Assembly (NCBI GenBank): GCA_002753105.1
Contig: PDZT01000011.1
Location: 1 to 39,638 of the forward strand
Direction: 5' to 3'
Length of the DNA: 39,638 bases
Source: Deltaproteobacteria bacterium YD0425bin50
GTDB taxonomy: Bacteria > Desulfobacterota > Desulfobacteria > Desulfobacterales > YD0425bin50
Shown here: piece by piece, positions 20,591 to 35,077 of the stretch
How the letters are laid out: every line of letters starts with the position of its first letter
How positions within the stretch are numbered: position 1 is the first letter of the stretch
Program-made: the position numbers and the translations under genes
The notes under the pieces: model-generated
Seen by the model: only the letters and a program-made list of their open reading frames with translations
Databases searched by the model: none
Told to the model about the DNA's origin: nothing

Positions 20591-23500
20591 TTACTCCACT
20601 TCTAAAGAATATGGCACAATATTGAACATCATGTCTTTGAAAATATCTCCACCTTGAGGCACAAAGCCAATGAAAAAGTCAAATTCTCCGGGCATTCCGT
20701 TCAGTGATCCTTTGTAAAAATCGACTGTTGTTGATAAACCAGCTTCAGATGACGAATACACTGGAAGCTCGCCTGCCTGATAGATGACAAATGGAGTGAA
20801 AAAATCATCGACTCTAAATATCCACATTGACGGATTGTTAGGAGATGTATAATACACTCCGGCAATGATATCGAATGGTTTTTCTCCTGCTGGAATATCA
20901 ACAGGGAAACTTAAATTCACCTGTGATTTCTGATCGATCTTGATTTTACTTTCATACCGTTCAACATTATCCACGACAATGCCTGAGTTAATTTGGCCTT
21001 GATTGGGTTTCTTGTTACCTTCGATATTGACAGTTGGGACGCTAACGTGTATCTGCGCTCTGCCTCTCTTATCCATACTATCCGTGACTGTAATCTGATA
21101 CACACCTGCTTTTTCAGGTGCTATATAACTGACCATATCTCCTTCAGGATTAGACAAACTCCCTGCTTCAACTGACCAGTTATACGGCGGCGCACCTTCT
21201 GTAACAGAAAAACTATAGGTTTCTTCTGGCTGCATAAATACTTTTTTGGGACTAATCATCAGTTCTGCATGCATAATCTGAACAACAGCCATCGCAGAAT
21301 TTCCAATAGAATCAGTTACAACCACATCATATCGACCCACTTTATCATACGATGTTGTCCATATTTTTTCCTGACTTCCATCTGGCCATGTATAAGGTTC
21401 AACGCCTCTGGCAATCGCAAAATTCACTTGTTCACCGATTCCTGCCATAACTCTGAATGGGCTGATTAATAATACGCCAGACACCTGAATTGTTGACTGG
21501 CTTTGATGTCCCATCGCATCCTGAACAGTGAGATAGTAAACCCCATTCTTTTCAGGTGCAATGTAACTCACCTGTGTCCCTTGTGTTTGACTTAAACTAC
21601 CCATGTCAACGACCCAATGATACGGAGACTGACCGCCGGTTACCGTAAATTGACTGGTTTCTGACGGGTTTAATACCACTTGAGTAGGTGTAAGTATGGG
21701 AAGTGATATCACTCTGATCAACGCGGTGGAGGATTTGTCTTCACTGTCGGTTACTGTTAATTCATATTCTCCTGTGATCACAGGCGGAATAAACGTAATT
21801 GTCGCACCTGTTCCTTGTATCTGGCCTGCTGTTGTTGACCATGTGTAGGGTGTCACACCTCCAAATGCGGTAAATTCTTTGATTTCAGAAGATTCAATGA
21901 TTACTGTTGCAATTATTGGTGTTAGTTGAATGTCCAAATAGACAGTAACCGTTGCATTCACTGCTTGTCCCTTACTGTCAGTTAAGGTTATTGCATATTC
22001 TCCGCCAACGTCAGGCGAAATATAGGTTACTTGACTGCCCTCATTAGATAACAACTTCCCGCCAGAAGCCGACCATGTGTATGCAGGTTTGCCGCCAGCA
22101 GCAGTAAACATAACATTTTCTCCTTTATTGAGAGAAATACTCGCCGGGCTGATAGTTAACAGTGTTATTGTGGTTATGTTGATATTCGCTGTTAGTGTCT
22201 GATCCAATGCATCCTTAACCGTAAGCGTTACATTTCCTGCCTCTTCTGGGGCATTATAATTCATGATCCCCTCTGTGGTGCTCACTTGAATTGTTCCGCT
22301 TGTAACTGTAGCAGTGTAAGGTGTTTTACCACCGGATACAGTGAATTCTTTGGATCCACCGGATTCTATATCGGCTGTCAATGGGGACAAGCTCAGACGG
22401 GAATATACTTTTACGCTCGCTGTCGTTTTATTTCCGATCTTATCGGTTAGCGTAATAGTACAATTATTTTCACCACAAGAGGTTGGGGCTGTGTATTCTA
22501 CAGAGGGTCCGCTATTGATGTCAAAACTTCCATTGTCAGAAGCCCAACTATACGGAGGTTCGCCTCCAGATGCAGTGAATGTCTGCACTTGTTGAGGTAG
22601 AAGTTCAGCTAAACCGGGTGAAATTGAAAGCCCAATTAAATTTTTAAATACAGCCGTAACAACTATGTTTTGGGACACGGTAATCGATTTTGTGGGCGTT
22701 GTCCCACTAAAACTTCCTTCCCAATAATCAAATCGAAACCCTTCTGCAGGTTCTGCTGAAATCGAGACAGATTCACCAAAACTGTATGTTGACTTAACCG
22801 GAGTGATAACCACTTGCCCGCTATTCGTGGGTGATGTTGACACAGTTACCGTATAATCAATTGGGGTAAAGACTGCTGTTACACTAGCGTTTTTTTCAAT
22901 GACGATAGATGTTCCAGTTAATTCACCTGTTACATCTCCAGACCATTTCAAAAATTTATACCCGGTATTCGGTACGGCTGACAAGGTTACTTTTGTTCCG
23001 CAATTGAATACAGAACCATAGGGTGAAGTGCTTACGGTTCCGTTATCTGCGCTTACAGTTAAGGTAAACTGTTTTAACTTAAACGCTGCATCAACCGTTT
23101 TATTCTCATTCATCACCAGCGTACAGCTTGTATTACTTCCAGAACATGCACCTGACCATCCCGTAAATTCATAACATGGAGAATTGGGAACCGCAGTTAA
23201 TGTAACGGAGTCTCCTTGATTGAAGCTTGTCTGGTTTGGTGATGCGGTAATACTTCCACCTGTGGCTGGATTCGCATTCAGTGTCAGTGTAGGTTGTACT
23301 GTTTTTTGAAAATTAGCGGTTAATACTGTGTCAGAATTCATCGTTACAGTGATGGAACTATTCGTGCCAGTTGCACCACCAGTCCACCCGGTAAATACAT
23401 ATCCTTCATTCGGAGTTACAGATAATGTCACTGACGTTCCGCAAGTGAATGTCGTTCCAGACGGTGATGGTGTTACGGTTCCATTTGTGGATGTTACGGA

Positions 23501-26500
23501 CAGCGAATAGGTTTTTATTGTAAAATTAGCAGTAGCCGATTTATTCCCATCCATAGTTAATTGGCAGGTAGAGGTTGAATTATTCGCACAAGCTCCAGAC
23601 CAGCCAGAAAAATGGTAACAACTTTCAGGAGTTGCTGTTAAAGTTACTATCGTTCCTTCAGTATAAGCAGTTTGGGTTACATCTCTTGAGATACAGCCTC
23701 CTGAGCCTGATGTTGTTGTCAAGGTATAGGTATCGGGCACAATTTCATCAAACTTAGCGGTTACAGCGGTATTGGAATTGATGATAAGTGTTTTTGTAGC
23801 ATCTGTTCCTGTAATTCCCCCAGACCAGCTAGTAAAAGAATAGCCGCTATTCGGTGTGGCAGTGAGTATAATTTGTTCATCACAGTCATACAAAGTCTTA
23901 TTGGGATTCTTCGTTACCGTGCCATTGGCAGCAGTGATTGTCAGGGTAAATGTCTTTTTGGCAAAATTCGCCGTTACCGATTTATTTCCAGTCATGGTAA
24001 CTGTGGTTGTTGCAGATGTGCCAGAAACATCTCCAGCCCAGCCTGAAAAATTATAACAGGTGTTTGGTGTTACCGTTAAAGTTACCGTTTCGCCACAGGT
24101 ATAACTGGTTTTGTTGGGTTCTTTGGTAACTGTGCCATTGGCTGCGGCTACACTTAGCGTGTAAGTGGGTTGAGTAAAATTTGCGGTTATCGTTTTATTG
24201 GCGGTCATGGTTACAGTTGTGCTTGTAGCTGTACCAGAAGCATCACCACTCCAGCCTGAAAAGGAATAACAGGTGTTGGGTGTTACTGTTAAGGTTACAG
24301 TTTCACCTGTTGTATAACTTGTTTTATCTGGTGATACTGAAATACTGCCTCCAGCAGTTGGGCTGGATATTTTGGTGAGGGTAAAGGTCTGAATTTGTGA
24401 AAAATTAGCAGTTACAGACTTGTTTGCAGTCATGGTAATTGTTGTACTCGTTGATGTTCCACTGGCATCTCCACTCCAGCTTCCAAATGAATATCCTGTG
24501 CTCGGCGTTGCAGTTAAGGTTACAGTTTCACCACAGGTATAGCTGTTTTTGTTTGGCTCTTTGGTAACTGTGCCATTGGCAGCAGTTACATTTAGGGTAT
24601 AAGTTGGCTGCGTAAAATTAGCAGTGACGGTTTTATTGGCGTTCATGGTTACGGTGGTACCTGTAGATGTTCCAGTGGCATCACCACTCCAGCCTGAGAA
24701 GGAATAGCAGGTGTTAGGCGTTACAGTAATCGTAACAGTTTCACCTGATGTATAACTTGTTTTATCTGGTGATACTGAAATACTGCCTCCAGCAGTTGGA
24801 TTGGGTATTTTGGTGAGGGTATAGGTCTGTATTTGTGAAAAATTAGCAGTTACAGACTTGTTTGCAGTCATGGTAATTGTTGTGGTCGTTGAAGTTACGC
24901 TGGCATCTCCACTCCAACTTCCAAAGGAATAGCCTGTGCTCGGCGTTGCAGTTAATGTAACAGTTTCTCCGCAGGTATAACTCGTTTTGTTGGGTTCTTT
25001 GGTGACTGTGCCATTGGCTGCGGTTACATTTAGCGTGTAAGTGGGTTGAGTAAAATTTGCGGTTACCGTTTTATTGGCGGTCATGGTTACAGTTGTACTT
25101 GTAGCTGTGCCAGAAGCATCACCGCTCCAGCTTGAGAAGGAATAGCAGGTGTTAGGCGTTACAGTGATCGTAACACTTTCACCTGATGTATAACTTGTTT
25201 TATCTGGTGACACTGAAATACTGCCTCCAGCAGTTGGATTGGGTATTTTGGTGAGGGTATAGGTCTGAATCTGTGAAAAATTAGCAGTTACAGACTTGTT
25301 TGCAGTCATGGTAATCGTTGTACTGGTTGATGTTCCGCTGGCATCACCACTCCAACTTCCAAATGAATAGCCTGTGCTCGGCGTAGCGGTAATGGTTACA
25401 GTTTCACCGCAGGTATAGCTCGTTTTATTGGGTTCTTTGGTAACAGTACCATTGGCGGCGGTTACGTTTAGCGTGTAGGTGGGTTGAGTAAAATATGCAG
25501 TTACAGTTTTATTGGCATTCATGGTTACAGTTGTACTTGTAGCTGTACCAGAAGCATCACCGCTCCAGCTTGAGAAAGAATAACAGGCGTTTGGTGTTAC
25601 GGTTAAGGTTACAGTTTCTCCGCAAGTATAACTCGTTTTATTGGGTTCTTTGGTGACTGTGCCATTTGAGGCAGTTACATTTAGCGTGTAGGTCGGTTGG
25701 GTAAAATTAGCGGTTACAGTTTTATTGGCGTTCATGGTTACGGTTGTACTTGTAGCTGTGCCAGAAGCATCACCACTCCAGCTTGAGAAAGAATAACAGG
25801 TGTTTGGTGTTACGGTTAGAGTTACTGTTTCATCGCAGGTATAACTGGTTTTATTTGGTTCTTTAGTTACTGTACCATTGGCTGAGGTAACGTTTAGTGT
25901 GTAAGTTGGTTGACTAAATGTAGCAGCAATGGAATGATTTGCGGTAACATTGCTAAATGTGTATGTGCTAACAGCACCGACAGAAACACCATCTACGGTT
26001 ACATCTGCAATTTGGTAACAGCTATTGGGAGTAATTGAGAATGATTGACTTCCGCCCTGAGCTACAGACACTGATCCAGATGGAGAAGTAGTGCCGCCAG
26101 TGTTGGCTGAGGCAGTAATTGTACTGCTTGTTTGAGGCAAATTTACTTTTAATATTTTGATTTTACAGCCGCTAAAACCGCCGGGAGAACCATAGGTGCA
26201 AGCGCAAGCCGTTCCAATTGTAGAATAAACAACATATAGCGAAGGAATTTCAGTATTTGGGTCGGTCTTTTTCACCAAATAGGCATCATGATATCTGTAT
26301 TGCCAATTATTTTTTGGATGTACCAAATAAGCAGATTCATTACTAATTTGTTGAAATTCCCAATTTCCTTGTTTATCTCCGATAATTAAATAAATATGAC
26401 CTTGAATACTCTGATTATAATCATATTGCATGGTTAAAATATAAATATTTGAATCTGTTACAAAAATATCCTTAGGCTGGTAAGATATTCCATTTGTATA

Positions 26501-27451
26501 GGTGTAAACAAGCGATGGGGAACCAAAATTTGTGGAATAATAGAGATTGTAATTAGTATTATTATAATACGTCATATGCCAGACTCCGGCCTTATCTTCA
26601 AAAATACATTGTCCACCTACACTTATCCCACTTGTTATAGACGTAGAAGTATCCCATGTGCCGTATGAATTTTTTAAAGATTTTCCTAAAAAAAATTCTT
26701 TACTTTCAAAATCTGAAATAGGACAATATATATCTCCATTTCTTGAAAGAGTATTACTAAAGTTTGTGTAATTTTTAGTTAAATCGGGATTACCTGAAAT
26801 TCTATTAGATATAATAAACAAATTTGACAAGGTTTCTGTCGTGGTATTGAAAATTTTTTCTTTGACGGCCATGCCATAAGAAGACCAGTTAAGTCTTCGA
26901 TACAACAAATGCAGATTATTATCCGCATCTTTTATCATAGTAGAAGCGATATCTCTTGGACCTCCCCCTTCCCATCCTTCATTGCTATGAATATCTACTG
27001 TTTTGATCCAAGTTCCACCTGACAATGTATATAAAGCCGCATCACCATAACAACCATAATTATTAATACGATCTCCTTCTAATGAATAAATATATTTTTT
27101 CCCATTAAGACCAGTAGCGATAGAAGTTTCCGCAACTGCTTTTGAACGGTTAGCAACTAAACTATCACTCCAGCTATTCGTGCTGATGTTATATTCAGAG
27201 TACCTGAGTTGTTTGTCATTTCCATAAGCAAAATATAAATTCCCGTTACTATCTTCTAACAAGGAATTTTTCCCGAAAAATTTACCCAGATACATTACAC
27301 CTGGCCAATTAGAGTCATTAACATAACTAATATTATTGGAAATATTTTCAAAAGTTTTAAACTCTGTTACCGTTACCGTTGCTATTGTTAGAGAAACAAA
27401 AAATTGAAATGTCATTATAAAAAGCATACTAAACAAAAATAATTTTTTCAT
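20591..27451 (-). CDS. giant secreted repeat protein (InlB-type B-repeats and Ig-like repeats), probable surface adhesin
   Basis: A 2286-residue protein with a signal peptide (about 1-24) and AAGGAG before the ATG. Residues about 30-440 have short repeated motifs such as SNGNLYFAYGND and a probable beta-propeller of the sialidase/BNR kind. Residues about 440-1604 hold 16 copies of a ~72-residue divergent InlB B-repeat (YTLNV..NGTVTKEPN..., FSSWSGDASGT..., VTANF). Residues about 1604-2140 hold seven ~77-residue Ig-like repeats (LxISP..., GGxPPYxW, YxLTVTDS). The final ~145 residues form a unique domain. No LPXTG, autotransporter barrel or clear sorting domain is visible, so how it is held at the surface is unknown. 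Three 438 bp tandem units indicate recent expansion. Confidence 0.88.
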   Translation of the reverse strand: MKKLFLFSMLFIMTFQFFVSLTIATVTVTEFKTFENISNNISYVNDSNWPGVMYLGKFFGKNSLLEDSNGNLYFAYGNDKQLRYSEYNISTNSWSDSLVANRSKAVAETSIATGLNGKKYIYSLEGDRINNYGCYGDAALYTLSGGTWIKTVDIHSNEGWEGGGPRDIASTMIKDADNNLHLLYRRLNWSSYGMAVKEKIFNTTTETLSNLFIISNRISGNPDLTKNYTNFSNTLSRNGDIYCPISDFESKEFFLGKSLKNSYGTWDTSTSITSGISVGGQCIFEDKAGVWHMTYYNNTNYNLYYSTNFGSPSLVYTYTNGISYQPKDIFVTDSNIYILTMQYDYNQSIQGHIYLIIGDKQGNWEFQQISNESAYLVHPKNNWQYRYHDAYLVKKTDPNTEIPSLYVVYSTIGTACACTYGSPGGFSGCKIKILKVNLPQTSSTITASANTGGTTSPSGSVSVAQGGSQSFSITPNSCYQIADVTVDGVSVGAVSTYTFSNVTANHSIAATFSQPTYTLNVTSANGTVTKEPNKTSYTCDETVTLTVTPNTCYSFSSWSGDASGTATSTTVTMNANKTVTANFTQPTYTLNVTASNGTVTKEPNKTSYTCGETVTLTVTPNACYSFSSWSGDASGTATSTTVTMNANKTVTAYFTQPTYTLNVTAANGTVTKEPNKTSYTCGETVTITATPSTGYSFGSWSGDASGTSTSTTITMTANKSVTANFSQIQTYTLTKIPNPTAGGSISVSPDKTSYTSGESVTITVTPNTCYSFSSWSGDASGTATSTTVTMTANKTVTANFTQPTYTLNVTAANGTVTKEPNKTSYTCGETVTLTATPSTGYSFGSWSGDASVTSTTTTITMTANKSVTANFSQIQTYTLTKIPNPTAGGSISVSPDKTSYTSGETVTITVTPNTCYSFSGWSGDATGTSTGTTVTMNANKTVTANFTQPTYTLNVTAANGTVTKEPNKNSYTCGETVTLTATPSTGYSFGSWSGDASGTSTSTTITMTANKSVTANFSQIQTFTLTKISSPTAGGSISVSPDKTSYTTGETVTLTVTPNTCYSFSGWSGDASGTATSTTVTMTANKTITANFTQPTYTLSVAAANGTVTKEPNKTSYTCGETVTLTVTPNTCYNFSGWAGDVSGTSATTTVTMTGNKSVTANFAKKTFTLTITAANGTVTKNPNKTLYDCDEQIILTATPNSGYSFTSWSGGITGTDATKTLIINSNTAVTAKFDEIVPDTYTLTTTSGSGGCISRDVTQTAYTEGTIVTLTATPESCYHFSGWSGACANNSTSTCQLTMDGNKSATANFTIKTYSLSVTSTNGTVTPSPSGTTFTCGTSVTLSVTPNEGYVFTGWTGGATGTNSSITVTMNSDTVLTANFQKTVQPTLTLNANPATGGSITASPNQTSFNQGDSVTLTAVPNSPCYEFTGWSGACSGSNTSCTLVMNENKTVDAAFKLKQFTLTVSADNGTVSTSPYGSVFNCGTKVTLSAVPNTGYKFLKWSGDVTGELTGTSIVIEKNASVTAVFTPIDYTVTVSTSPTNSGQVVITPVKSTYSFGESVSISAEPAEGFRFDYWEGSFSGTTPTKSITVSQNIVVTAVFKNLIGLSISPGLAELLPQQVQTFTASGGEPPYSWASDNGSFDINSGPSVEYTAPTSCGENNCTITLTDKIGNKTTASVKVYSRLSLSPLTADIESGGSKEFTVSGGKTPYTATVTSGTIQVSTTEGIMNYNAPEEAGNVTLTVKDALDQTLTANINITTITLLTISPASISLNKGENVMFTAAGGKPAYTWSASGGKLLSNEGSQVTYISPDVGGEYAITLTDSKGQAVNATVTVYLDIQLTPIIATVIIESSEIKEFTAFGGVTPYTWSTTAGQIQGTGATITFIPPVITGEYELTVTDSEDKSSTALIRVISLPILTPTQVVLNPSETSQFTVTGGQSPYHWVVDMGSLSQTQGTQVSYIAPEKNGVYYLTVQDAMGHQSQSTIQVSGVLLISPFRVMAGIGEQVNFAIARGVEPYTWPDGSQEKIWTTSYDKVGRYDVVVTDSIGNSAMAVVQIMHAELMISPKKVFMQPEETYSFSVTEGAPPYNWSVEAGSLSNPEGDMVSYIAPEKAGVYQITVTDSMDKRGRAQIHVSVPTVNIEGNKKPNQGQINSGIVVDNVERYESKIKIDQKSQVNLSFPVDIPAGEKPFDIIAGVYYTSPNNPSMWIFRVDDFFTPFVIYQAGELPVYSSSEAGLSTTVDFYKGSLNGMPGEFDFFIGFVPQGGDIFKDMMFNIVPYSLEVE
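24155..25487 (-). repeat. three tandem ~438 bp coding repeats (higher-order InlB repeat dimers)
   Basis: The landmark CCTCCAGCAGTTGG recurs at 24348, 24786 and 25224, exactly 438 bp apart. Each unit encodes one pair of B-repeats (146 residues): a KEPNKTSYTCGE copy followed by an SPDKTSYTSGE copy. Nucleotide identity is high along the whole unit. Confidence 0.8.
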
Positions 27452-27876: not shown

Positions 27877-28320
27877 TTAGCTGTAGTTTGTAAGCAATAA
27901 TGCACGAAATCCTGCTTGTTGAAAATGCTCATCAGTAGTTAACGCATCCATAATTTTTCGATTTCGCATGATGATGAAAGATATGCAATCTGTCATACCC
28001 CATTCTTTATCTGGTCGCTCACAGTAAAGTTGAAACGCTTGTGTATAGTGATATAATGTCAAAGGAACAATAGTAATATTTGGATCTTCTTGAATTGACC
28101 GTAGCAATTCTATTGAAGCAGAGCGGTATCTCTGTTTTGATAAAGCGTTTCCAATTTCTAACATTACTGCACGAGTTGTTACCATGCGTGTTTGATTTGT
28201 TTCTAACTCATCAGCGAGTGCGATTGCTCGTTCGTGATGAGAATCTCGCCATACTGACAATGCGATAGCATAAGATGCGTCAAGAAATACTTCAACTTTC
28301 GTGTTGGATTTTTTTTTCAT
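27877..28320 (-). CDS. vapC: PIN-domain toxin (VapC-type ribonuclease)
   Basis: VapC-type toxins cut RNA, often tRNA or rRNA, and are neutralised by a cognate antitoxin. From the ATG at 28320 the protein is 147 residues with all expected acidic positions: Asp14 (FLDASYAIAL), Glu55 (VMLEIGNAL), Asp111 (GMTDCISFIIM) and Asp130 (TTDEHF). An upstream in-frame ATG at 28362 would add 14 unrelated residues and is less likely. The start lies inside the last 29 bp of the upstream antitoxin-like gene, the classic overlapping arrangement of toxin-antitoxin pairs. The active site is complete, so the toxin is probably functional. Confidence 0.88.
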   Translation of the reverse strand: MKKKSNTKVEVFLDASYAIALSVWRDSHHERAIALADELETNQTRMVTTRAVMLEIGNALSKQRYRSASIELLRSIQEDPNITIVPLTLYHYTQAFQLYCERPDKEWGMTDCISFIIMRNRKIMDALTTDEHFQQAGFRALLLTNYS

Positions 28321-28525
28321 ATAAATACGTTTCCAAATTTTGTGACCAATCCCGTGGTCCATCTAAATTAAGAGATCGAGCTGTTTTAAGAAAAGACAGG
28401 TTTTTCTTCTCAACAGGCGAGGTTTTCTCTATAATAATCGACACACATGTATTAGGTACAATTTGGGGTTTTTGAGTTGGTCGGAAAACCTTACCATCAA
28501 ATATTGCTTCTATCGGCTGTGTCAT
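28292..28525 (-). CDS. AF2212-type putative antitoxin (DUF104)
   Basis: A 77-residue protein whose N-terminus (PIEAIFDGKVFRPTQ, then VPNTCVSIIIE) matches the small beta-barrel family known as antitoxin AF2212-like or DUF104. Its C-terminal half is helical and would wrap around the toxin. The ATG is preceded by GGAGA. The gene overlaps the PIN toxin gene by 29 bp, so the pair should be translationally coupled and form one toxin-antitoxin module. Identification rests on the N-terminal motif and the gene order. Confidence 0.82.
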   Translation of the reverse strand: MTQPIEAIFDGKVFRPTQKPQIVPNTCVSIIIEKTSPVEKKNLSFLKTARSLNLDGPRDWSQNLETYLYEKKIQHES

Positions 28526-28565
28526 AAAAAAATCTCCACTAATTCATATAGGTACCACTCTCATA

Positions 28566-28620
28566 AACTGCGTTATTCTGGATTCCCGATTTCGTGGGAA
28601 TAACGATAACGAACGCAGTT
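28566..28620. repeat. palindromic repeat (half unit of the GGAATCCAG class)
   Basis: AACTGCGTT (28566-28574) pairs with AACGCAGTT (28612-28620). Inside, GATTCCC and GGGAAT form a second hairpin around GATTTCGT. It separates the DUF433 gene from the AF2212/PIN pair and touches the end of the DUF433 gene. Confidence 0.7.
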
Positions 28621-28624
28621 ATTC

Positions 28625-28990
28625 TCATTTTTCTTGAATTTGTTGTATAATTTCGTCTCGATGAGAACGGAAATACGCCCATGCATTGACTAAATCTTCT
28701 ACTCTTAACGTAGGATACCATTGAAGCAACTCCCCATCGGTCGTTCCCAATTGTTTTGCTTGGACTAATAGCCACACCGGAATTCTCGTTCTGACAATAC
28801 AGGGTTCTCCTCCACAAACGGTAGGAATGGACTCAATCCCGGGAAAAACATCGCCCATATCTTGTACAATCCATTGTAATACGACTGCTTTTTCAGGTCG
28901 TCGTAGCGATGAAATCAATTGAAAAACGATTTCTAGCTTATTATTATTGGTTAAATTTTTTTTTGCATATTCTATTCTATTCTTCAACAA
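28625..28990 (-). CDS. DUF433 family protein (antitoxin-like), probably orphaned
   Basis: The 121 residues match the DUF433 pattern from about residue 45 on: DMGDVFPGIESIPTVCGGEP, then CIVRTRIPVWLLVQAKQLG, YPTLRVEDLVNAWAYFRSH and EIIQQIQ. In many genomes this protein precedes a DUF5615 PIN-like partner, with which it is thought to form a toxin-antitoxin pair. Here no partner follows. The gene stops after QIQEK, a few residues short of the usual QI.ENEE ending, and a palindromic repeat begins at once. The start is TTG at 28990, immediately after an in-frame TAG, with only a weak AGAG ahead of it. An ATG start would lose the N-terminal helices. Confidence 0.75.
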   Translation of the reverse strand: MLKNRIEYAKKNLTNNNKLEIVFQLISSLRRPEKAVVLQWIVQDMGDVFPGIESIPTVCGGEPCIVRTRIPVWLLVQAKQLGTTDGELLQWYPTLRVEDLVNAWAYFRSHRDEIIQQIQEK

Positions 28991-29292: not shown

Positions 29293-29676
29293 CTATGTTT
29301 CTTCAAATTTTTGCAATACTCGTATCACCACGTCTTCCTTTAAATCCAAAAACTCTGCTATTTCCTTAATAGAAAACCCCTTTCGATGCAATTTGCGAAT
29401 ACCCTGATTTCTGCCAAGTTCAATGCCCTGATTTCTGCCAAGCACAATGCCCTGATTCCTCCCAACTTCAATACCCTGAATCATCCCAACTTCAATACCC
29501 TGAATCATCCCCTGATCATATCCAATTCTCATAATATCGCCTCGTATTTCCATAATCTTTTCTCCTCCCTCTAATTTTTCAATTTCTTCGTAATAGAGTT
29601 TTTTCTTGATGTCATCTGTGATTTCCATTGAAAAATCAATAAACTTAAATAGTGCCCTTTTGGAGGGCGAACACAA
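29293..29676 (-). pseudogene. C-terminal remnant of an Rpn/PD-(D/E)XK nuclease-transposase family gene
   Basis: Only the tail of this family is present: FIDFSMEITDD.KKKLYYEEIEKLEGGEKIMEI, a coiled region, and a C-terminal helix-turn-helix-like end (HRKGFSIKEIAEFLDLKEDVV). The N-terminal nuclease core is missing. The first ~9 residues of the open frame (MCSPSKRAL) are encoded by a palindromic repeat, so the gene was truncated there. The middle holds 4.5 copies of a 24 bp unit coding for eight-residue repeats such as GRNQGIEL. It is very unlikely to be active. Confidence 0.75.
29402..29510 (-). repeat. 4.5 tandem copies of a 24 bp unit in the Rpn remnant
   Basis: Units start at 29402, 29426, 29450, 29474 and 29498, each beginning CCCTGA on the plus strand. 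They encode GMIQGIEV and GRNQGIxL octapeptides, and the first two and last two units are most alike. Confidence 0.8.
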
Positions 29677-29911: not shown

Positions 29912-32113
29912 TTAAAACAGCGCATAAGAAAGACGCAATAAAACTCGTTGATCCCGAGATAGAGGTTTCTCCTCAGTATTGATGTCTGCATCCCGAATCA
30001 GCTTGGTGATGAAGTTTAATGAAGCGTATTTGCCTAAGCGAAACGATAACGAATTTTCCAGATTCACGATAGATTCATCAAAATTATCAAACGGTTGCAG
30101 AACATCTATCTCTGTATTCATCACAATCCAACGCAAGATTCGCAATTTACTAATTAAAGCAAGTTCCACACCCTTCTTGTAATGACTTTTCAACTCTTGT
30201 ATTTCAAACTCAGTTGTATCGGATTGATCACGTTCGGTATATAAGTTTTTCACTAATACTTGACGCGCTCCAAGACCTATACGTACATCCATACCAAGAT
30301 AGACATTTTTACATAGAGTTAGGTTAGCCCCAGCACTTTCCCTAAAAGATAAAAGTGAAAATGACTCACTGAGATCAATTTTATCTCGATTGGACAATTG
30401 ATTCAATCGGTTGCCTTTGTTGTCTGTAATACTAATCGTAGTAGGCTCGTCAAAAAACATAGTTCTCGGAAAAAAATTCGTTTCAACGTTAAATCGACCA
30501 TATGGCCCAATCCATGATTTATACCGATAGATGTAAATCGTATCGACATCAAAATTATCAAGATTATTCTCATAATCCTTGCTGCTAGGCCGCTTTGTCT
30601 GGCCTTCCTCTAACTCAACACGCAGATTTAAAAAATTTTTTTCTTTTTCATAAGTAATATTGTTATCCACAAAAAGACTGAATGATGTGGTATCCCCATT
30701 TTCAATTCCGGAAATATTATTCGTATTCTGAAAGCTAAAATTTCCACCTAAAAGGCTGTTAAATTTCCAGTTTCCAATTTTTTGATGTTCTTTTTCTTCA
30801 GTCCAAGGCGTTACGCCAGCTCCCATAAAATCTTCTGTTATAGAATCCATGACAAGGGTAAAATGAGTAAGCTTGCCGGGTTCAAGATAAACTGTAGCAA
30901 AATTTTTTCTCGCTCGGTACGTTTCACCTACTTTTATAATTTTGTATAATCCGGGTTTTAAAAGCCATGTTTGAACTACCTCACCACTTTGTTCATCCAC
31001 TCCAAAACCAGTTCCATAGACTTCCCGATTTGCGGAATTCAGTACTTCATAACTGCCACGAATGGATACGTTGCGTTCATCCACAACTCTGACCACCAGT
31101 CCTGACCATGTTGGTTGAACAACATTGACTTGATCCGCAATAATAGTAACCTTGAATAGACTTAGCTGTGATCCAACTCCAGAACCTATAAAAATTTCAT
31201 ATTCACCGGGGGCAAGAAAAATTTTTTTACCGGTTTCACCGGTTATGTTGAGTTTTCCTTTTGTCCGAATTTCAAATAAGGGTTCCCGATTTGAATTCGT
31301 CATCGCAGGAATAAACAGCGCGCCTTTTCCCAATGGGATGGGTCTGGCATCAAGAGCTATTTGATCTCGAACAGGCTGAGATTCCCATGATTCATGATTC
31401 TTTATTTCAGAATAAATTGAGTTTTTTACAGGTTCTGTGATGGTTTTGGAAAAACTAGATATAAATGTCGGAGGTTTAAATACAGAAGGTGAAACATTTT
31501 GTTGAGTAGAAAAAAAGTGATCGACTTTTACGGTGAGCTGAAACAATTCATACATCATCATTTGGCTAAGCGTTTGAACAACCATTTCCGGTGATTTGAC
31601 CAGAACCTTTTCTGTACGGTCAAATTGATGAACCACAACCACTTTACCCGATTTATTATTAATAAGCTGGTATCTCATGGCCAAGTGAGCGGATGCAGAT
31701 TCCCCGTCACTCAATTCTTCAATGTTTTGAATCTCAGTATTTAAGGCATAATCTGGGATAGATGTTTCAATGGTTGACAGCACCTGACTAAACAGATGAG
31801 TCTGCCGCAATTGACCTATAATCATTTCTGAAATCATTTTCTGAGGTTTTATACTCCACAAATGATGTGGGTAATATTCAAGTTTATAAGGCGAATAGCG
31901 ATATACCAGTTCTAAACGGTCATAGAGCGGATCAATAGCTGGCGGCTGGACTAAAACCTGATAAGAAAATTTAGGGGATACAGTAGAAATATCCCGTTTC
32001 GCAGGTTGCGTTAACACATAATACTGGCGGTTAATTTTCGTTCTGAAGCAGCCAACAAAAGCAACAGCAATCAGAATGACTAAAACAAGTTTCAGGTACT
32101 TCCTGTTGTTCAT
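29912..32113 (-). CDS. MCE-operon outer-membrane lipoprotein fused to a predicted beta-barrel
   Basis: This 733-residue protein starts with a lipoprotein signal and Cys22 (VAFVGC). Residues about 25-205 form an ABC-transport auxiliary domain of the PqiC type (YYVLTQPAKR..., VQPPAIDPLYDRLELVYR, and a conserved ending QTLSQMMMYELFQL). Residues about 250-420 contain two small beta-sandwich segments (LAPGEYEIFIGSG and LLKPGLYKIIKVG) like PEGA-type domains. The last ~310 residues alternate polar and hydrophobic residues, are rich in Tyr and Phe, and end in LRLSYALF, as expected for an outer-membrane barrel with a C-terminal Phe. It is the last gene of the MCE operon, 30 bp after the MlaD-like gene. 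The fusion is unusual; the barrel call is from composition and pattern only. Confidence 0.75.
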   Translation of the reverse strand: MNNRKYLKLVLVILIAVAFVGCFRTKINRQYYVLTQPAKRDISTVSPKFSYQVLVQPPAIDPLYDRLELVYRYSPYKLEYYPHHLWSIKPQKMISEMIIGQLRQTHLFSQVLSTIETSIPDYALNTEIQNIEELSDGESASAHLAMRYQLINNKSGKVVVVHQFDRTEKVLVKSPEMVVQTLSQMMMYELFQLTVKVDHFFSTQQNVSPSVFKPPTFISSFSKTITEPVKNSIYSEIKNHESWESQPVRDQIALDARPIPLGKGALFIPAMTNSNREPLFEIRTKGKLNITGETGKKIFLAPGEYEIFIGSGVGSQLSLFKVTIIADQVNVVQPTWSGLVVRVVDERNVSIRGSYEVLNSANREVYGTGFGVDEQSGEVVQTWLLKPGLYKIIKVGETYRARKNFATVYLEPGKLTHFTLVMDSITEDFMGAGVTPWTEEKEHQKIGNWKFNSLLGGNFSFQNTNNISGIENGDTTSFSLFVDNNITYEKEKNFLNLRVELEEGQTKRPSSKDYENNLDNFDVDTIYIYRYKSWIGPYGRFNVETNFFPRTMFFDEPTTISITDNKGNRLNQLSNRDKIDLSESFSLLSFRESAGANLTLCKNVYLGMDVRIGLGARQVLVKNLYTERDQSDTTEFEIQELKSHYKKGVELALISKLRILRWIVMNTEIDVLQPFDNFDESIVNLENSLSFRLGKYASLNFITKLIRDADINTEEKPLSRDQRVLLRLSYALF

Positions 32114-32143
32114 GGTATTAATTCCTTGTCTGATACGTTTGAT

Positions 32144-33139
32144 TTAGTCCTCTTCATGAACTCCTAAAAATAATGAAGATGGGTTTTCCTGAATGATCCG
32201 GCTAAAATTTTTTAAATTTTCAGATGCCTGATTCAAATAGTCCAATGTAGCCGCCAGATTCGTCTGGTTTCTAGCAATGGTTAAATTCAATGTTTTAATC
32301 ATTTGCTGAGTATCTGCAACAATCGTTTTTAAAGACGGATCATGTACTAATTCACTTGCATCTGAAATGAGTTGATCTGTTTTTTTCAAAATGACTGAAA
32401 GTGTTTCACGCTCTTCTTTCAGCCCGGTAATCAATCCTTGAGCAGCTTCTAATGTTTTGTAAAGTACTGGGCGGTTTTCAGTCAACATGGCGCTAATTGT
32501 TTTCAATTCTTCCTGCATTGCTGAAGATGCCTGAGTCAAATTTTGAACAAGTTGAACAATCGAAGGTCGGGAACTTGTCATTATTGCTTCTGTCTCAGAT
32601 AAAATCCGATCCATTCTGTCAAACAGTGATACTAATTTTATGCTATTTTCTTCTCTGGTTAATACGAGTAAATTATTAAGTATCTGTTCTGTTTTAAGTG
32701 CAATAGACGTTGCCTTACCTGTTAGAGTATCTACAAATGAAATTTCTTCGGGGATTTCACCACCGGGTGATAATTTTGGGGAAGCATCCGTACTTTTAAT
32801 CAGTTCAATGTATTTAAGACCTGTAATTCCCAAAGAAGTGGATACAGCCCGGGTATCTTGTTTAATTGGGGTGTTATGTTCAACACTAATGGTTAACAGG
32901 GTAGTCGAAACACTTTCTGGATCTACCTGAATAGATTCAATCCGACCCACCTGAACACCATTGTACTTAACAGTTGACCCGATCTCCAAACCACTGACTG
33001 AAGTGGCCAGCCGAATACTATATTGATCACGATTTTGAGTAAAATGAGTTCCTGTTAGCGCAACGAGTGTTCCTACAAGTACTGTAACTGCAAAAAAAAC
33101 AAAAATTCCAAGTCTGGCTTTTTGGGTTTGAGTGATCAT
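32144..33139 (-). CDS. mlaD: MCE (MlaD-type) lipid-binding membrane protein
   Basis: MlaD-type proteins sit in the inner membrane, form hexameric rings in the periplasm and carry lipids between membranes. This 331-residue protein has one N-terminal membrane helix (about 10-30) and a single MCE domain (about 38-115, with VSGLEIGSTVKYNGVQVGRIESIQVD). After that comes a ~190-residue helical tail with repeated LLVLTREENS- and LTEN-type heptads, typical of the longer MCE proteins whose helices form a tube. The start ATG overlaps the stop of the ATPase gene by 4 bp (ATGA). Whether the helices span the periplasm cannot be judged here. Confidence 0.92.
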   Translation of the reverse strand: MITQTQKARLGIFVFFAVTVLVGTLVALTGTHFTQNRDQYSIRLATSVSGLEIGSTVKYNGVQVGRIESIQVDPESVSTTLLTISVEHNTPIKQDTRAVSTSLGITGLKYIELIKSTDASPKLSPGGEIPEEISFVDTLTGKATSIALKTEQILNNLLVLTREENSIKLVSLFDRMDRILSETEAIMTSSRPSIVQLVQNLTQASSAMQEELKTISAMLTENRPVLYKTLEAAQGLITGLKEERETLSVILKKTDQLISDASELVHDPSLKTIVADTQQMIKTLNLTIARNQTNLAATLDYLNQASENLKNFSRIIQENPSSLFLGVHEED

Positions 33140-33957
33140 GAACTTTTCTCCAGAATTTGATCCGTTTGATTGGCTGAATGTTGAAAAAAATGCAGGGCTG
33201 AAGGTAAGTTTTGAGATGCTCCGATTTTACGTCCAAAAAAACTTTGAATCATGGGATGATCCATCTGGCGAACGTGATCAAGTGTTCCCTGAGAAAGCAC
33301 TTTACCCTGATCCAGCATAATGGCATGATCTGCAATGGCTTCGATGCTGGCAAGTTCATGTGTAACAACGATCACTGTCATATTAAACTGTTCTTTAATA
33401 TTCAAAAGCAACTGATCTAACCCTGATGAAGTCAGAGGATCAAGACCTGCAGAAGGTTCATCGCAAAATAAAATATCCGGGTCTAAGGCAATTGCTCGCG
33501 CCAGAGCTGCTCTTTTTTTCATGCCGCCAGAAAGTTCTCCGGGATATAATTTAGCTGCATGGGAAAGCTCTACCTGCATGAGTTTAATCCAGACGATATC
33601 CTGAATTATGGAATTTGGGAGATTGGTATGTTCTCTGATCGGCAACGCCACGTTGTCTTCAATGGTCATCGAGCTTAACAATGCGCCATTTTGAAACAGC
33701 ATTCCAATTCTGGGTAGCAGTTTTTCGCGTTTGTCTTCAGAAAGCGCATGAATATCTTCACCAAGAAGTCGCACTGTACCTGCAGTTGGATAATACAGCC
33801 CGATCATATGTTTCAATAACGTACTTTTTCCGCACCCACTACCACCTAAAACAACAGTTATTTTGCCTTGTTCTATGTTTAAGGTAATCTTATCTAATAT
33901 TTTTCTGGAGCCGTAATACGTCTCTAAGTCTTTCACTTCAATGGGATACGTCGTCAT
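33136..33957 (-). CDS. mlaF: MCE transporter ATPase (MlaF-type)
   Basis: A 273-residue ABC ATPase that powers the lipid transporter. Walker A is GGSGCGKST at 38-46, the ABC signature is LSGGMKKR near 143, and Walker B is ILFCDEPSAGLDP, followed by the switch His in VVVTHEL. Lys in place of the usual Gln in the signature (GGMKKR) is typical of MlaF proteins. It lies between the permease gene (10 bp gap) and the MCE gene (4 bp overlap), so the three are clearly one operon. The C-terminal 25 residues beyond the core are not recognised. Confidence 0.95.
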   Translation of the reverse strand: MTTYPIEVKDLETYYGSRKILDKITLNIEQGKITVVLGGSGCGKSTLLKHMIGLYYPTAGTVRLLGEDIHALSEDKREKLLPRIGMLFQNGALLSSMTIEDNVALPIREHTNLPNSIIQDIVWIKLMQVELSHAAKLYPGELSGGMKKRAALARAIALDPDILFCDEPSAGLDPLTSSGLDQLLLNIKEQFNMTVIVVTHELASIEAIADHAIMLDQGKVLSQGTLDHVRQMDHPMIQSFFGRKIGASQNLPSALHFFQHSANQTDQILEKSS

Positions 33958-33967
33958 AATCGAATCG

Positions 33968-35077
33968 TTAATCTATATACATAAAAAGAATACTAAACAC
34001 AGCATCAGCCATAATTATCAAAAAAAGACAAATCACAACTGAACTTGTTGTAACTAATCCTACGCCTTTGGCGCCACCCTGAACCTGAAAACCTTTGTAC
34101 GTGCCAACAATAGCAATAATCCATGCAAAGGCAACACTTTTAATTAACCCTGTGATAATGTCCCGAATAAAAAGCGTCTTCAATAACTGGTTAATAAACG
34201 CGACTGGACTTAATTGTAACACCACCACCCCAACAACAAAGCCGCCAAAAATTCCAAGAAGATCAGAAATAACGGTGAGTAACGGCTGGGTAAAAGTAAT
34301 CGCATAGAGTTTAGGCGTAATAATAAATCGTGTTGGGTTAATACCCATTGTCTTTAAGGCATCAATTTCTTCCGTAACCATCATTGTGGCAATTTCAGCA
34401 GCAATAGCCGCACCACTTCTACCCGCAACAATTATCGCAGCGATTAACGGTCCCATTTCCCGAGCCATAGCCACACCAATGAGATTGGCCACAAAAATAT
34501 CAGCTCCAAACTGGCGCAGTTGATAGGAAGATAGTAATGCCAAGGTCATGCCCACAAGAAACGAGGTTAATCCTACAATACCGACAGCTTCAGCACCAAT
34601 ATAGTTGGCCTGCTCAAGAATAGATTGCCATTTGGGCGCTTTTTTTTTTAGTGGGCCAATAACTGACCAGTAAAAAATATCAGAAACCAAAATAGCCACA
34701 TGGAGAAGAAAACCGAATGCTGCATAACTAGCTTCGCCAATACGTGAAAAAAAATTCCCAGAATCACGTAAAGACTCCTTAGGAATTTCTTTCCAAGGAA
34801 GCATTGAAAATGTTTTTTTCAAAGCATCATGTATTCCAATGACTTGAAAAACAATCTTACGGTGATTTGCCTGTCTTGCAATTTCAATCAACGAAGCAAC
34901 ACCTGCGGTATCAATAGATGTAACTCCAGAAAGATCAAGTTGAAACATGCCCCCTGTGAGAGCATTGATCTGTTTCTGCAGTGTTTTAAAAACCAGAGCA
35001 ACGGTTTTGAATGTAAAATCACCAGTTAATACCCAAGTATTTTCTTGTTCTGGTTTTTGGTGTATAGATATTTCCAT
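33968..35077 (-). CDS. mlaE: MCE transporter permease (MlaE-type) with N-terminal STAS domain
   Basis: The 369-residue protein joins an MlaB-like STAS domain (about 1-100, with LDLSGVTSIDTAGVASLIEIA) to an MlaE permease. The permease part has about five membrane segments and the family signature EMGPLIAAIIVAGRSGAAIAAEIATM.VTEEIDALKTMG. In E. coli these are separate proteins; STAS-permease fusions are common in other lineages. It is the first gene of the minus-strand operon permease-ATPase-MCE-lipoprotein/barrel. No convincing sigma70 promoter is visible in the 244 bp between it and the divergent DUF169 gene. Confidence 0.95.
   Translation of the reverse strand: MEISIHQKPEQENTWVLTGDFTFKTVALVFKTLQKQINALTGGMFQLDLSGVTSIDTAGVASLIEIARQANHRKIVFQVIGIHDALKKTFSMLPWKEIPKESLRDSGNFFSRIGEASYAAFGFLLHVAILVSDIFYWSVIGPLKKKAPKWQSILEQANYIGAEAVGIVGLTSFLVGMTLALLSSYQLRQFGADIFVANLIGVAMAREMGPLIAAIIVAGRSGAAIAAEIATMMVTEEIDALKTMGINPTRFIITPKLYAITFTQPLLTVISDLLGIFGGFVVGVVVLQLSPVAFINQLLKTLFIRDIITGLIKSVAFAWIIAIVGTYKGFQVQGGAKGVGLVTTSSVVICLFLIIMADAVFSILFMYID

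Follow-up and report, generated by a model that had tools for sequence, protein, structure and literature searches.

To our knowledge, the docking ring of PqiC-type MCE systems lies under the outer membrane, and we know of nothing in these systems that crosses it. In Escherichia coli, PqiC forms an octameric ring that has been proposed to surround the PqiB needle as a collar (PMC10897342). The Mpc system of Brucella abortus (MpcEFDA) is a stable complex of a four-gene, Mla-Pqi chimeric type that includes an MCE needle, and its PqiC-like lipoprotein has been proposed to form an octameric cap (PMC12436622). A comparable assembly is available as PDB deposit 13HR, which contains eight ABC_trans_aux lipoprotein chains and eight MCE chains. 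Elsewhere, an MCE system can carry an outer-membrane barrel of its own, as does the long MlaD of Veillonella parvula (PMC10665443). Here, we studied a four-gene MCE operon in which the ring-type lipoprotein is joined, within a single polypeptide, to a predicted outer-membrane beta-barrel.

The operon lies in a window of 39,638 nucleotides, the whole stretch of DNA that was analyzed (contig PDZT01000011.1), from the metagenome-assembled genome (MAG) of Deltaproteobacteria bacterium YD0425bin50. All four genes are on the minus strand. The first encodes a 369-aa permease (33968-35077) with a STAS domain joined to the permease N-terminus (Pfam MlaE 2e-71 and STAS_2 2.8e-11; NCBIfam TIGR00056 over cut-off), and the second a 273-aa MlaF-type ATPase (33136-33957; Pfam ABC_tran 4.8e-32) for which MlaF is the best NCBIfam model and which matches Pseudomonas aeruginosa MlaF (7ch8) with E 1.5e-57. 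These are followed by a 331-aa MCE protein (32144-33139; Pfam MlaD 4.1e-16 at residues 40-115) and by a single open frame of 733 aa (29912-32113) that combines a lipoprotein, two small beta domains, and the predicted barrel. The spacing between the four frames, in gene order, is 10 bp, a 4-bp overlap, and 30 bp, and an AAGGA precedes the last gene, so an operon is likely. A preliminary description of this DNA had given the same gene order and had called the identity of the first three genes secure; open reading frames, Pfam, and NCBIfam agree on both counts. A second MCE gene set occurs in the same genome outside the window (L048; G000 contig C176:15525-18749) and comprises part of a permease, a 235-aa ATPase, and a 379-aa MCE protein. 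By eye, the ATPase of that set looks degenerate, with neither the Walker A nor the LSGGQ signature intact (SGETSKDS, IDGRRRWQ), and that system may therefore lack ATP hydrolysis of its own.

An MlaE permease, an MlaF ATPase, and an MCE/MlaD protein are thus encoded together, as in MlaEFD-type transporters, but neither MlaC nor MlaA was found among the four genes or the neighboring scanned ORFs, as the canonical system (MlaFEDB-C-A) would need. The lipoprotein part of the last gene product belongs to the ABC_trans_aux family (PF03886, 56.2 bits; cut-off 26), whereas the NCBIfam model for PqiC proper (NF033620) scores 11 bits against a cut-off of 200. What remains is the Mpc combination of MlaE, MlaF, MCE protein, and PqiC-like lipoprotein in one operon. 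Judged by gene content, the system is of Mpc type, and is neither canonical Mla nor PqiC proper. It shares with Brucella Mpc a permease, an ATPase, a needle protein with one MCE domain, and a PqiC-like lipoprotein encoded last, in an operon without MlaC; it differs in that STAS is here fused to the permease, and in that MpcA is described as a PqiC homolog with no mention of a barrel, whereas here the lipoprotein continues into two beta domains and then a predicted barrel (PMC12436622). What it shares with E. coli PqiABC is the PqiC domain and, probably, a docking ring at the outer membrane that receives the MCE needle; there, PqiA takes the place of MlaE/F, three MCE domains occur in PqiB, and PqiC is a separate, barrel-less protein of 187 residues (PMC10897342).

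The MCE protein has an N-terminal transmembrane helix, one MCE domain, and a probably helical part of about 200 residues that would form the needle; its residues 7-260 match chain 13hr_I (E 1.6e-19). At its C-terminus is the motif ENPSSLFLG (32162-32188, minus strand), a peptide through which the protein probably docks into the lipoprotein ring; its counterpart in 13hr_I is ENPANYLLG. Of the 24 relatives in which an MCE gene was matched, nearly all have a QPSQLLFG-like tail by eye (14 by a strict pattern). Because ENPSSLFLG matches the tails of both 13HR and the relatives, docking of the needle through its tail has probably been kept here. In the loci L002-L030, the tails take a form like QPSQLLFGxPPPPR, of which the ENPSSLFLG protein keeps the core without the proline-rich end. 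Structures 13HR, 13HS, and 13HQ resemble this system in the MCE match and the tail motif of 13hr_I, and the chain list shows 13hr_A to belong to one family with the relatives' short lipoprotein; however, the lipoproteins in these structures have 206-214 residues and no extension. The MCE protein ends at residue 331 in its docking-motif tail, and it is not a long MlaD of the Veillonella type. Among MCE systems that carry a fused barrel, Veillonella parvula MlaD is nevertheless the closest precedent, with the difference that there the barrel sits on the MCE protein and a lipoprotein is not needed, whereas here it sits on the lipoprotein (PMC10665443).

The 733-residue protein (all features on the minus strand) begins with a signal peptide and a lipobox, both read by eye, with a putative lipobox cysteine at residue 22 (AFVG-C; 32048-32050). 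The PqiC-type ABC_trans_aux domain occupies residues 32-186 (31556-32020; PF03886 4e-15) and is followed by a linker (residues about 187-255) and two small domains (about 255-425) that appear by eye to be beta-structured (together 30785-31555). The predicted barrel domain, with about 12 strands in the low-confidence models, spans residues 444-733 (29915-30784). For the middle part (residues about 187-443) there was no Pfam, NCBIfam, or PHROG match above cut-off and no homolog in the genomes searched; it may act as a spacer that separates the ring from the barrel. Codon log-odds favor the annotated frame over both others in each 60-codon window as far as residue 720, and base composition does not change across the junction of lipoprotein and extension. 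The extension is therefore not a read-through artifact of the ORF list, and the fusion proposed in the preliminary description is borne out, with one coding frame carrying the PF03886 domain and a 547-residue extension. Within its own genome (a MAG 75% complete, in 589 contigs), PF03886 occurs once, and the protein is single-copy.

Among related genomes, the lipoprotein is common and the extension is not. The PF03886 domain was found in 44 of 146 related genomes, and in the 28 loci where its end could be mapped it is followed by 16-40 residues (27 loci) or 112 residues (one locus), compared with 547 here; the MCE protein and the ATPase are encoded just upstream in most of these loci. The 112-residue tail of a relative's lipoprotein (L019:1297-2217) is not barrel-like, which suggests that the lipoprotein tolerates C-terminal additions. 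A class-wide PF03886 search (389 genomes) returned, among the matches listed, mostly frames of 200-300 residues. Several longer frames in relatives (G120, 845; G357, 687; G030, 495; G151, 430; G189, 412) were considered as fusions and rejected because the excess is frame overhang and the actual lipoproteins have about 200 aa. A repeat of the fusion beside mlaE/F/D genes, for which the preliminary description had proposed a search, was not found in the genomes covered (146 related; 389 class-wide, among the matches listed; and a phylum search). Single-protein scans of genome and viral contigs yielded no close relatives, and plasmids had no match to the 733-residue protein; E. coli OmpX as a query against plasmids gave nothing useful, and barrel-profile matches within the order were weak, short, and unconvincing. 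A literature search, which missed most subscription papers, turned up no published case of a barrel fused to a PqiC-type lipoprotein. From these sequence comparisons, the fusion appears to be new and is so far seen in a single genome, and the transporter that carries it is common. The idea that a whole transport path in four genes is in itself unusual is not supported, because many members of the order have this operon with a short lipoprotein as its last product and because Brucella has it as Mpc (PMC12436622).

The C-terminal domain has two homologs among the genomes searched. Residues 450-708 match two stand-alone proteins (L055 and L056, ∼335 residues each) in two further MAGs from the phylum (CP070770.1, "Deltaproteobacteria bacterium," and JAQTNV010000054.1), with E 2.8e-13 and 7.6e-12 in the phylum search and 5e-18 and 6e-17 pairwise, in alignments of at most about 270 residues. 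With the barrel alignment as query, a scan gave only these two among genome contigs and none among viral contigs. By eye, both begin with apparently ordinary signal peptides; unlike the domain here, they are separate genes away from mce operons, with no mce genes found near them. L055 passes the cut-off of DUF3078 (PF11276; 26.2 bits against 25), and L056 falls just below it, as does the 733-residue protein, whose weak match (20.3 bits) spans 30467-30691. PG1786 of Porphyromonas gingivalis, a DUF3078 protein, is given as an outer-membrane protein and as a hypothetical component of type 9 secretion (PMC9722745). A further DUF3078 match, in G013, was set aside as a generic barrel match because it is part of a TonB-dependent receptor.

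Strand pattern points the same way. With a simple amphipathic-strand score, for which the reference was 131 E. coli proteins, 12 of them outer-membrane proteins (OMPs), the C-terminus scored 5.54, within the E. coli OMP range, and ranked seventh of 136 (E. coli OMP mean 5.09; non-OMP mean 3.08, sd 0.99), a value reached by 4 of 500 shuffles; L055 and L056 ranked 3 and 17 of 136. The score is also high for the non-OMPs rplT, yfcV, and murA, and reaches 4.78 for the PF03886 lipoprotein domain itself. Two AlphaFold models from a three-sequence input are of very low confidence (pLDDT 27.6 and 34.5), probably because the alignment has just two homologs, and are nearly all-beta, with about 12 long strands; in the model of a homolog, most of these have 11-16 residues. 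Foldseek found no match below E 0.001 for the low-confidence model, and its ranking was discarded as proof of a barrel, because AlgE, OmpF, FapF, and NanC rank there but so do pore-forming complement proteins. The OMP_b-brl match of the fused protein is below the Pfam cut-off. The terminal Phe does not lie in phase with the hydrophobic side of the final strand (L-2, Y-4, L-6), and the C-terminal residue of L055 and L056 is not Phe. Taken together, residues 444-733 probably form an outer-membrane beta-barrel. The barrel of the preliminary description thus gains from homology to DUF3078-type secreted proteins and from an OMP-like strand pattern, but not from structure models of such low confidence; the outcomes that description had set against a barrel, a soluble fold or homologs that are soluble enzymes, were not seen.

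Two other accounts of the extension have to be weighed against a functional barrel. The C-terminal part could be a soluble, beta-rich periplasmic or surface domain, as might be argued from models that are not confident, from the lack of a significant Foldseek match, from an OMP_b-brl match under cut-off, and from a strand score that separates OMPs imperfectly from other beta proteins. We consider this unlikely, given that the stand-alone homologs are DUF3078-type and one DUF3078 protein is listed as outer-membrane (PMC9722745), that all three homologous sequences score in the OMP range, and that strand lengths in the low-confidence model are typical of barrels. Less probable still is that the fusion arose from a sequencing or assembly artifact (a lost stop codon or a mis-join), or is a lone, decaying, functionless copy. 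The protein does come from one fragmented and incomplete MAG, and the fusion was found in no other genome searched, but the same frame is favored by codon usage before and after the junction, composition is even, the linker and two beta domains are unlike debris, and neither the operon nor the MCE tail motif is disrupted.

It is likely, in our judgment, that this is an Mpc-type transporter whose docking-ring lipoprotein has gained a DUF3078-type outer-membrane barrel of its own, mainly as an anchor. An inner-membrane MlaE/MlaF complex would drive a hexameric MCE protein, whose helical needle would span the periplasm and whose tail peptide would dock into a PqiC-type lipoprotein ring at the outer membrane. 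The lipoprotein would have been lengthened by fusion, so that the ring domain is followed by the linker, the two small beta domains, and a DUF3078-type barrel whose source was a stand-alone outer-membrane protein. Two attachments would therefore fix each ring subunit in the outer membrane, the lipid at its N-terminus and the barrel at its C-terminus, and the barrel would most likely serve as an anchor, rigid or laterally fixed, that positions the ring within the membrane. In this explanation, the sequence shows the operon, its domains, the fusion, the homology of the C-terminus, and the tail motif; we infer the barrel fold, the ring stoichiometry, the anchoring role, and the identity and direction of the lipid cargo. 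The preliminary description had instead made the barrel a lipid conduit, with a continuous path from MlaE through the MCE needle and the lipoprotein ring to the barrel. A needle would then be capped by a barrel-bearing PqiC-type ring, the barrels would help to move lipid between needle and outer leaflet, and four genes would provide a path without MlaA or porins. Fusion does place barrel and docking ring on one chain, and LptD, in which lipid passes through the barrel, is a precedent. So, too, is Veillonella MlaD with its own barrel, but that barrel was judged too narrow for the passage of phospholipid (PMC10665443). Moreover, an octameric ring would bring up to eight barrels around the needle axis, rather than a single coaxial pore, which favors an anchor or scaffold, and relatives manage without any barrel. 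We therefore find both the conduit and the four-gene lipid path built on it improbable; one polypeptide may well supply both docking lipoprotein and barrel, as first proposed, but the lipid pore did not find comparable support.

The fusion is of value chiefly because it hints, by a natural example, at the way in which the docking ring and the outer membrane meet. Just as partners can be recognized from fused genes, the joining of the ring protein to a barrel indicates where the ring lies and in which direction it is oriented; it also hints that relatives may use a separate outer-membrane protein in place of the barrel. If the fused domain is a barrel, MCE systems would have gained barrels at least two times by different routes, on MlaD in Veillonella and on the lipoprotein here.

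Other genes lie near the operon in the window. A short protein at 29293-29676 contains repeated GIELGRNQGI-like units, resembles the tail of a larger nuclease-type family, and by eye is probably a fragment. At 27877-28990, a PIN-domain protein is encoded near a DUF433 protein, possibly as a toxin-antitoxin-like pair, and positions 20591-27451 encode a 2286-aa protein with 15 divergent InlB B-repeats (PF18998).
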